NCBI RefSeq assembly: GCF_000019965.1
Contig: NC_010571.1
Coordinates: forward strand, 3,419,001 to 3,483,000
Source: Opitutus terrae PB90-1
Lineage (GTDB): Bacteria > Verrucomicrobiota > Verrucomicrobiia > Opitutales > Opitutaceae
Length of the DNA stretch: 64,000 bases
Reading direction: 5' to 3'
The position numbers were made by a program, and so were the translations under genes. Shown in pieces: positions 23,609 through 26,165 of this stretch. The notes under the pieces are model-generated. The model saw only the letters and a program-made list of their open reading frames with translations, did no database searches and was not told the origin of the DNA. Each line of letters begins with the position of its first letter. The stretch's first letter is position 1.

Positions 23609-24835
<1,227 letters not shown>

Positions 24836-24839
24836 CGCG

Positions 24840-24871
24840 AAATCCCAAACGCCAAAGGTTCAAACGCCAAA
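24840..24871. repeat. Left inverted arm of four-helix-bundle cassette
   Basis: Read on the minus strand the arm is TTTGGCG, TTTGAACC, TTTGGCG, TTTGGGA, TTT, that is units of 7, 8, 7 and 7 nt. It starts 5 nt after the trpB stop and ends 9 nt before the start of the small gene. It mirrors the right arm at 25256-25287 in unit sequence and unit length. Confidence 0.88.
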
Positions 24872-24880
24872 GAAAGCTCA

Positions 24881-25234
24881 ATGGCAGAAAAACCGATGGA
24901 CTTGGAGGAGCGCTCGGCGGTCTTTGCGATCGACGTACGATCGTTTGTCCGGAAGCTTCCGCGGACAATTTCGAACATCGAGGACGTCAAGCAGCTCGTT
25001 CGCGCTTCGGGATCCGTGGCAGCCAATTGTATCGAGGCCGACGAGGCTCTGGGCGAAAAGGATCGCGTGATGAAGTTCCGTACCTGCCGCAAAGAAGCGA
25101 AGGAGTCGCAGCTCTGGTTGCGTTTGGTCTACACCGCGGGGAACACAGGAATTGAGGAGACACAGCGACAGCTTCGACAAGAGGCTCACGAGCTGAAACT
25201 CATCTTTTCCTCCATCGTGAAAAAGCTGGAATGA
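24881..25234 (+). CDS. Four-helix-bundle protein (23S rRNA intervening-sequence/S23 family)
   Basis: A 117-residue mostly helical protein. DLEERSAVFAIDVRSFVRKL, then QLVRASGSVAANCIEADEAL and KFRTCRKEAKESQLWLRLV, follow the pattern of the IVS-encoded S23/four-helix family (TIGR02436 type), related to the bAvd accessory fold. Members occur inside 23S rRNA intervening sequences in some bacteria and as isolated genes in many others, and their function is not established. This copy is between trpB and yicC. It is bounded on both sides by inverted arms made of four heptad-like units, so gene plus arms look like one mobile cassette of about 450 bp. There is no reverse transcriptase nearby, so no diversity-generating retroelement. 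Confidence 0.85.
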   Translation: MAEKPMDLEERSAVFAIDVRSFVRKLPRTISNIEDVKQLVRASGSVAANCIEADEALGEKDRVMKFRTCRKEAKESQLWLRLVYTAGNTGIEETQRQLRQEAHELKLIFSSIVKKLE

Positions 25235-25255
25235 GCAGCTTCGGATTCGGATTTG

Positions 25256-25287
25256 TTTGGCGTTTGGGCGTTTGGCGTTTGTGATTT
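25256..25287. repeat. Right inverted arm of four-helix-bundle cassette
   Basis: Units TTTGGCG (25256-25262), TTTGGGCG (25263-25270), TTTGGCG (25271-25277), TTTGTGA (25278-25284) and TTT. Unit lengths 7-8-7-7 match the left arm exactly. It ends 5 nt before the yicC ATG, so it fills the yicC leader. Confidence 0.88.
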
Positions 25288-25292
25288 GCTCC

Positions 25293-26165
25293 ATGCGCAG
25301 CATGACAGGCTACGGGCGGGCGACCTCCGCGGTCGCGGGGTATTCGCTCACCGTGCAGGTGAGTGCGGTGAATCGGAAGACGCTGGATCTCGCGATCAGC
25401 CTGCCCTCGGATTGGGAGGCGCTGGAGACGTCCGTCGCGGAACAGGTGCGCCAGGTCGCCACACGCGGCCGCGTGAATGTTGCGATCGAGCTGACGGGGG
25501 CGCGCGGCGCGCCCGAGATCGCGTGGGACAGCGCCGAGGTGGATGCGACGCTCGACAAGCTTGCGGCGCTCGCGGCTGCGCGCGGGGTGCCGTTCGAACC
25601 CACGCCGGAGCTACTGTGGTCGGTCGCCAACGCGCAGCGGATCACACCCGAGCTGCCCGATGCGGAGGAAGCGGCGGCTACCGTGACGGAAAGTGTGGCG
25701 GAAGCGCTGCGTGGCTTTGTGGCGATGCGCGCGCAGGAGGGCGAGGCGCTGCTGGTGGATTTTCTCGCGCGCTTGCGCACCGTGCGCGGCCACGTGGAGG
25801 CCATCGCTACGCGCGCCCCTCAGGTTGCGCCCGGCTATCGGGAGGTGCTGATGCAGCGGTTGCGGCAGGCGGGACTTGAACTCGACGTGAATGACGAACG
25901 CGTGCTCCGAGAGGTGGCGCTGTTTGCGGATCGTTGCGACATCACCGAGGAGCTCACGCGGCTGCGCAGCCACCTCGATCAGTTCACCGCCTTGCTCAAA
26001 TCGGACGGCGAGATCGGTCGGAAAGCGGAGTTCATCCTGCAGGAGATGGGACGCGAGGTGAACACCATCGGCAGCAAGGCCAACGATCTTGCGATCTCCA
26101 AAGCCGTCATCGAGCTGAAGAACGAACTCGAGCGCGTGCGCGAGCAGATCGCGAACGTCGAGTAA
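25293..26165 (+). CDS. yicC: YicC-family endoribonuclease
   Basis: A 290-residue protein with the diagnostic N-terminus MRSMTGYGRA and the C-terminal block EIGRKAEFILQEMGREVNTIGSKANDL of the YicC/YloC family. E. coli YicC has been shown to be an RNase that acts on small RNA. The start is ATG 25293. A longer open frame begins inside the right cassette arm but encodes repeat sequence. The cassette has replaced whatever leader this gene had, so its promoter may lie upstream of trpB or inside the cassette. Confidence 0.9.
   Translation: MRSMTGYGRATSAVAGYSLTVQVSAVNRKTLDLAISLPSDWEALETSVAEQVRQVATRGRVNVAIELTGARGAPEIAWDSAEVDATLDKLAALAAARGVPFEPTPELLWSVANAQRITPELPDAEEAAATVTESVAEALRGFVAMRAQEGEALLVDFLARLRTVRGHVEAIATRAPQVAPGYREVLMQRLRQAGLELDVNDERVLREVALFADRCDITEELTRLRSHLDQFTALLKSDGEIGRKAEFILQEMGREVNTIGSKANDLAISKAVIELKNELERVREQIANVE

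Follow-up and report, generated by a model that had tools for sequence, protein, structure and literature searches.

A four-helix-bundle gene between inverted arrays of seven-nucleotide units: a probable small mobile cassette in Opitutus terrae and other bacteria

In a window of 64,000 nt analysed from the genome of Opitutus terrae PB90-1 (NC_010571.1, positions 3,419,001 to 3,483,000), a gene for a four-helix-bundle protein lies between two arms in inverse orientation, each composed of short units of mostly 7 nt. We consider it probable (roughly 0.6) that this gene and its two arms constitute a small mobile cassette, a free-standing, non-ribosomal form of the intervening-sequence (IVS) elements of 23S rRNA. 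The original prediction, that gene plus arms make up one transposable unit of about 450 bp with no recognizable transposase, is supported by cassettes at several plasmid sites, by cassette-free counterparts of those sites, and by joint exchange of gene and arms; movement to new sites is seen for plasmid copies of cassettes of the same gene family rather than for the window copy. A widespread gene family of "unknown function" thereby gains a genomic setting and a testable job, and the findings point to a mobile element, about 450 bp long, whose movement involves no recognizable enzyme of its own. They may also connect rRNA intervening sequences with bacterial heptanucleotide repeats, both of them unsolved problems.

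The cassette between trpB and yicC

The window genome consists of one contig of 5,957,605 bp. The relevant features, in window coordinates, are as follows.

23612..24835, plus strand: trpB (TIGR00263), upstream host gene, outside the cassette
24840..24875, plus strand: left arm, reading inward AAATCCC AAACGCC AAAGGTTC AAACGCC AAAG
24881..25234, plus strand: four-helix-bundle gene (S23 / 23S rRNA IVP), 117 aa (PF05635, TIGR02436)
25252..25287, minus strand: right arm, reading inward on the minus strand AAATCAC AAACGCC AAACGCCC AAACGCC AAAC
25293..26165, plus strand: yicC, downstream host gene, outside the cassette

Both window arms are 36 nt long with unit lengths of 7-7-8-7 read inward, and they are mirror images unit by unit, the 8-nt unit occupying the identical place in each. 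Over 43 nt, the stretches 24840-24882 and 25245-25287 show 81% complementarity and include a perfect 13-nt pairing of 24844-24856 with 25256-25268, confirming the inverse arms originally described around the S23/IVS-type gene. The spacing of 5 nt claimed for both sides holds toward yicC, where the outer end of the right arm stands 5 nt ahead of the ATG (25293); on the trpB side it is 4 nt, the outer end of the left arm beginning 4 nt after the stop codon (24833-24835). The gene product scores 40.8 bits against PF05635 (cut-off 33.8) and 72.3 bits against TIGR02436, "four helix bundle protein" (cut-off 24). No ORF between trpB and yicC other than the four-helix gene belongs to a recognized family, and comparison of these ORFs with family profiles finds no recombinase, nuclease, or transposase encoded in the cassette, which measures about 450 bp.

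Inverted arrays across the gene family

The survey comprised 170 loci: eight from the window genome, 69 from family genomes, 80 from named genomes (the best 80 of 522, from many phyla), and 13 from viral contigs. The 69 family-genome loci are a non-random draw, of which 29 are the best match of their genome and 40 come from further matches. Usable flanks were available at 168 of the 170 loci, and a locus was taken to pass when its left flank scored at least 30 against the reverse complement of its right flank.

Inverted arrays pass at 118 of the 168 loci, in many phyla (window genome 5/8, family genomes 50/69, named genomes 52/78, viral contigs 11/13), and the remaining 50 stay below the arm score; because many of these loci are homologous, the counts represent non-independent events. 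Left and right flanks taken from different loci pass in 2.7% of 2000 pairs. Direct-orientation scores of at least 30 occur at 0/8, 3/69, 13/78, and 0/13 loci of the same four sources, respectively, and partly reflect tandem copies. With 200-nt flanks, 114 of 166 loci pass at the gene itself, and positions shifted by 600-1200 bp pass in 0/116, 0/117, 2/120, 0/121, 1/121, and 1/120 cases. A replication set of 30 fetched loci contained 15 repeats; of the 15 loci new to the analysis 12 pass, with 0 of 12-14 passing at shifted positions. The expectation that other family members carry inverted short-unit arrays is thus borne out, both in the survey and among the new loci. Eight cyanobacterial plasmid loci, picked among ten listed of 24, give scores of 30 or more in seven cases and 29 in one. 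As to phage carriage, 50,697 phage records contain no match to the member at locus L100, and the window protein has none in IMG/VR, where 13 contigs carry relatives of A2.

The window genome contains eight PF05635-type genes. Besides the five with inverted flanks scoring at least 30, two members (L008 and L013) have arrays that are visible by eye and score below 30, and one (L012, at 4499628) is without arms of its own. The array unit differs from member to member, the units named by eye being GTTGAGA, CGGTGAAN, TCGTTC, TTTTCGA, and TAGGCNN. L008 belongs to a 3.1-kb alignment with two loci in records named Opitutia and Opitutaceae. A small inverted CCAATAA/TTATTGG pair is located directly alongside L012.

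Anatomy of the arms

In the 118 passing pairs the identity is 0.65 at a lag of 7 and 0.61 at a lag of 14, and the remaining lags up to 20 give 0.22-0.29 (about 0.30 after shuffling). A period of 7 nt fits best in 104 of the 118 arm pairs, 8 in 11, and 6 in 3, and an arm contains four to five units at 79 of 102 loci on the left and 73 of 102 on the right. Conserved and free positions can be distinguished inside the unit, with 60% of 94 loci lying beyond z 1.64. The outer end of the arm is separated from the upstream ORF by a median of 5 nt (n = 113; 80% at 30 nt or less) and from the downstream ORF by a median of 10 nt (n = 109; 72% at 30 nt or less). Since the outer ends adjoin neighbouring ORFs, the arms themselves, rather than DNA outside them, look like ends. 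Records named Nitrospirota, Acidobacteriaceae, and Hydrocoleum are among those with units of the form TCAGCNN; inspection by eye shows a deviant outermost unit in several TCAGC arrays. At one locus (L338, genome G265, contig C174) the end of the four-helix gene and its right arm are directly duplicated.

Mirroring of the unit order between the two arms exceeds that under permutation (mean z 1.29, se 0.10, n = 96). Such mirroring, like the matching position of the 8-nt unit in the two window arms, would also suit an explanation in which the arms form an RNA stem that encloses the gene and is cleaved by RNase III, like the stem of the 23S rRNA IVS; the inverse orientation would then be maintained by selection on the RNA stem instead of on DNA ends. 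The window RNA is predicted to fold arm on arm (z -2.84), and the accessible text of PMC4990558 describes RNase III excision of the Coxiella IVS, which shares the gene family and also has heptamers. However, arm mismatches are G-U compatible in 95 cases in the sense RNA versus 154 in the antisense (p 2e-4), or by locus in 28 versus 55 of 115, and pairing alone would not demand conserved and free positions within a unit. The antisense excess is itself unexplained, strand-biased base composition being the sole explanation offered. We regard the RNA stem, which is compatible with mobility, as unlikely to be the main role of the arms.

The type of unit is related to the protein. Heptamer-profile similarity rises with protein identity (Mantel r 0.46, 99 loci, p ≤ 0.001, permutation maximum 0.12), and the correlation is r 0.50 within the named genomes alone (n = 46); it is present for arms in the same orientation to the gene and absent for the reverse complement. 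The correlation of arm and protein subfamilies that had been anticipated is therefore found, the unit tracking the protein over the 99 loci. Shared descent of the cassette would equally give this correlation, so it is evidence for one unit and no proof of binding.

Plasmid sites with and without the cassette

Insertion was followed in a set of 24 plasmid records containing a relative of L100. One cassette is present at three plasmid sites, in Aulosira laxa, in Trichormus variabilis/Scytonema, and in Nostoc sp. C052, with homology of 78-82% over 416-419 nt (positions 736/739-1154) that extends from arm to arm; the flanks of the three sites are unrelated, and the homology stops at the arms. Cassette-free counterparts exist for all seven of the plasmid sites, namely Trichormus, Nostoc C052, Aulosira, nrdB-nrdA, cas10-cmr3, cas6-cas4, and the Calothrix secretion genes. 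At cas10-cmr3, for example, the cassette is present in Picosynechococcus PCC 7003 and absent from the laboratory strain PCC 7002. At the Trichormus site six plasmids without the cassette, two of them read as sequence, match the flanks at 97.5-98%. The empty junction reads AAAAA-GTAATTA-ACAAAT and the filled junction AAAAA-GTAATAA-cassette-GTAATTA-ACAAAT, indicating a target duplication of 7-8 bp (8 bp with one mismatch). The empty sites looked for on the strength of the original prediction are thus present, and the target duplications looked for with them are clean at this one of seven sites only. The Nostoc site is ambiguous, with 10 bp including mismatches relative to one empty site and none relative to another, and the other five sites have no duplication, 13-162 bp of the cassette-free site remaining unaligned.

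Reduced copies are also found. At the Trichormus site, the surviving left side of a shortened cassette (L351) reads GTAATTA, like the empty site, and another copy (L360) has kept both arms and lost the gene; an internally deleted cassette (L364) occupies a fourth Nostoc place. Taken together, these alignments show cassettes of the family to be situated, as far as sequence comparison can tell, between genes at different sites, and to have apparent deletion derivatives, some of which retain both ends. They likewise show the arms to be the apparent ends of inserted DNA: in the plasmid relatives, rather than base by base for the window copy, these ends are terminal inverted repeats in the usual sense. 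Inverted ends, empty sites, deleted copies (L364, L351), and, at a single site, a target duplication recall MITEs and insertion sequences. The cassettes differ from these in having no transposase and in having ends made of short-unit arrays that vary by subfamily, and the cores of gene-less arrays have no kinship with one another.

Three of the cassettes on cyanobacterial plasmids (L342, L343, and L346) lie between related genes, these being cas6/cas4, cas10/cmr3, and nrdB/nrdA. In Pseudanabaena ABRG5-3 the spacer of the gene-less counterpart at cas6-cas4 (L362) contains AATTACG-like 7-nt units in a short row.

The trpB-yicC junction in relatives

yicC was detected in 91 of 100 family genomes, and the junction was examined in 70 of the 91; trpB lies upstream in 63. 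These 63 junctions comprise 21 with a four-helix gene, 20 with abutting genes, and 22 with other spacers. Where the genes abut, the yicC ATG overlaps the trpB stop as ATGA in 12 of the 13 junctions read. Arm remnants are recognizable by eye in the gene-less spacers of seven genomes (G001, G028, G006, G037, G040, G029, and G035), and in G068 both arms, with another unit, flank about 110 bp without a gene (by eye). The comparison of relatives suggested by the original prediction thus yields filled, empty, and remnant junctions, and arms that change along with the gene.

The filled sites fall into three main arm clans (CCAAACG; CAAGTNN, which is clan B; and AAATCCC) and one single (G016). Mapped on the tree of the four-helix protein, arm type changes three times, which is the minimum. 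The TrpB tree was built quickly and its deep branches are weak; on it the 10 rows of clan B require 10 changes and the 7 rows of clan A require 7, with well-supported branches alone demanding at least six for each. Differing arms occur at this junction within single genera (G055 with clan A and G010 with clan B; G016 versus G059 with clan B; G020 with clan C versus G063 and G089 with clan B), and TrpB identity is weakly correlated with four-helix identity (r 0.16, p 0.03). A left arm and the right arm of another genome score at least 30 in 57 of 138 pairs of the same clan and in 0 of 282 pairs across clans, where the highest score is 29; the genomes' own left-right pairs reach 30 in 11 of 21 cases, several right flanks being incomplete. 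Arm type agrees exactly with the gene tree and has a scattered distribution across the TrpB tree, and arms match within a clan; gene and both arms have hence been replaced together. These trees and alignments show the arms to be exchanged between hosts in company with their gene. Homologous recombination at trpB/yicC, without transposition, could account for the joint replacement, and many of the closest relatives of the window copy adjoin yicC, so homologous exchange at the window site is possible.

In some clan-B genomes (L195 and L201) the arm provides the stop codon of trpB. Insertion of the cassette may be tolerated because short intergenic gaps are chosen and a stop codon can come from the arm. 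The gene-less trpB-yicC spacers L196, L197, L200, and L208 (genomes G084, G015, G043, and G028) contain inverted repeats of other kinds, whose units, judged by eye, measure about 8-9 nt (CACGAAGGG, CACAGATTN, CAAAGACG); the junction therefore seems to gather several kinds of insert.

The four-helix protein and candidate movers

The AlphaFold2 model of the window protein has four helices with a mean pLDDT of 94. Its fold matches 2rld (TM 0.80) and 2gsc (TM 0.78), solved family members deposited with five chains each, and a profile built from the window clan and six other members matches both with E ~1e-20. The gene is under purifying selection (median pN/pS 0.25, 45 pairs). A less close fold match is to Avd (8ub7 chain E, TM 0.69; 4dwl, 0.67), which serves the reverse transcriptase of diversity-generating retroelements (DGRs).

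The resemblance to Avd would be accommodated if a reverse transcriptase or a Y1 (REP/IS200-type) transposase acting in trans moved the cassette, with the four-helix protein as an accessory, and Y1 genes are indeed present in 53 of 61 family genomes. We consider this highly improbable. Reverse transcriptase occurs in only 21 of the 61 genomes, and there is no PF00078 match in the window genome (eight copies), G030 (13 copies), or G017 (five copies); for Y1, matches are lacking in G017 and G023, each with five copies of the cassette gene. G017, G023, and G030 are drafts of 95-98% completeness, and present absence may hide past presence. Whereas Avd is linked to a reverse transcriptase, the genome of the window gene is without a PF00078 match, and whereas REP/RAYT systems have Y1 in or beside the element, the window cassette has no adjacent Y1: of four Y1 matches in the window genome, the three with a listed place are all more than 250 kb away. 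As separate candidates, reverse transcriptase as an obligate partner is not supported, given its count of 21 of 61 genomes and its missing matches in G000 (the window genome), G030, and G017, and it does not seem to be required at present; Y1 transposase as the mover is not supported either, given its missing matches in two genomes with five copies each.

Under the mobile-cassette reading, the cassette probably has its ends read by the ring-forming protein that it encodes. The ring, as suggested by the five chains of a solved relative, would bind arrays of four to five units; recognition would be specific to the subfamily and directed at the core of each 7-nt unit; the protein would bring the two cassette ends together; and cutting and joining would be left to some other enzyme of the cell. 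Cassette and arm pairs would make a ready panel of cognate and non-cognate protein-DNA combinations in binding assays.

Relation to 23S rRNA intervening sequences

IVS with an S23 ORF are described for the 23S rRNA of Leptospira, Coxiella, and others, the Coxiella IVS being 428 nt long, with heptamers GACAGAT directly upstream of the S23 ORF and a history of reductive evolution; a role of the S23 ORF in mobility was proposed long ago (Ralph and McClelland 1993, cited in PMC4990558; all as given in the accessible text of that paper). Within the literature covered, most subscription papers and bioRxiv being outside this scope, the same Coxiella paper is the only source whose accessible text speaks of both the gene and the arrays. 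As far as that text describes them, IVS share with the window cassette the gene family, a similar size (428 versus about 450), pairing ends, and a scattered distribution. Unlike an IVS, the window cassette is located between two protein genes, outside 23S rRNA, and has arrays on both sides with a subfamily-specific unit; for the cassettes studied here, again unlike IVS, empty sites and exchange are documented and the gene is under the purifying selection noted above. Because it lies outside rRNA, the window cassette is called a relative of the 23S rRNA IVS.

Gene-less arrays and heptanucleotide repeats

Arrays also occur without the gene. The three-unit pattern GCTGANNGCTGANNGCTGA is found 3 to 1469 times in 16 named genomes, with 0 to 32 occurrences of the reversed-pattern control; the top count of 1469 is from one cyanobacterium, where the reversed pattern occurs 32 times, and in G255 the control (8) exceeds the pattern (3). 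In G265, with 59 pattern places, there are ten inverted pairs 50-101 bp apart, all in the polarity of cassette ends, and no inverted pair in the opposite polarity. Seventeen gene-less array pairs from four genomes enclose cores of 29-312 bp; these are unrelated to one another apart from a nested repeat, and tblastn detects nothing of the four-helix gene in them. A view of the gene-less arrays as one MITE family is not supported, the cores being unrelated, with the exception of the internally deleted Nostoc cassette L364. Gene-less arrays with unrelated cores are the observation least well covered by the mobile-cassette explanation, since a simple autonomous/MITE pair predicts otherwise. In two gene-less TCAGC arrays of G261 (L335, L337), further CGCAAAGGA-like repeats are contained as nested inserts.

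The abundance of gene-less arrays, the 1469 occurrences against 32 in particular, and their unrelated cores are what would be expected if arrays were by-products of polymerase slippage and template switching at intergenic sites, the gene just happening to lie between them, with spread at trpB-yicC by homologous recombination; earlier work, as reported in the accessible text of PMC4679880, holds a length of 7 nt to favour slippage. This explanation seems improbable to us, because the arms are at the gene and absent 600-1200 bp away, the unit type follows the protein, and the same cassette recurs at unrelated sites, homologous as far as the arms and no further. A few insertions with ends exactly at the arms are seen at plasmid sites.

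In the window genome TTTGGCGTTTG occurs 13 times, four of them within the window arms. At 966338 both arms of the TTTGGCGTTTG type enclose a short core, and at 4886174 and 5597591 a lone arm of this type lies immediately 5' of a start codon; some occurrences inside genes look like chance matches.

Comparable repeats have been described elsewhere. According to the accessible text of MacGregor (PMC4679880), TAACTGA repeats are present in Beggiatoaceae, cyanobacteria, and Bacteroidetes, often just 5' of start codons, with no mechanism of spread found; Xanthomonas has heptamers GGGAATC in 70-75 inverted pairs per genome, as given in the accessible text of PMC4692102. The reverse complement of TAACTGA is TCAGTTA, the arm unit of L140, and both kinds of repeat resemble cassette arms, so far as these texts describe them, in having 7-nt units and an intergenic location, and in Xanthomonas also inverted pairs. 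The terms "four helix", "S23", and "intervening" are absent from the accessible text of PMC4679880, as is "helix bundle" from that of PMC4692102. That TAACTGA and GGGAATC repeats derive from such cassettes is offered as a lead.

More broadly, and tentatively, the cassettes may represent a separate class of mobile element, in which a non-enzymatic ring reads about five 7-nt units, one per subunit, in a code that drifts with the protein. The duplicated target is about as long as the 7-nt unit, so its repeated duplication at the ends might build the arrays; gene-less offspring would be a source of scattered heptanucleotide repeats in cyanobacteria, Beggiatoaceae, and others, and rRNA IVS would be copies that landed in rRNA. 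We rate this extension as possible, and clearly less likely than the mobile cassette itself.

In the cyanobacterium Tildeniella (G251), the four-unit GCTGANN pattern has 958 matches, as compared with 14 for the control (for example C4:102449-102572), and some of the arrays are long and pure. These pure arrays resemble the short tandem repeats (STRR) familiar from cyanobacteria.
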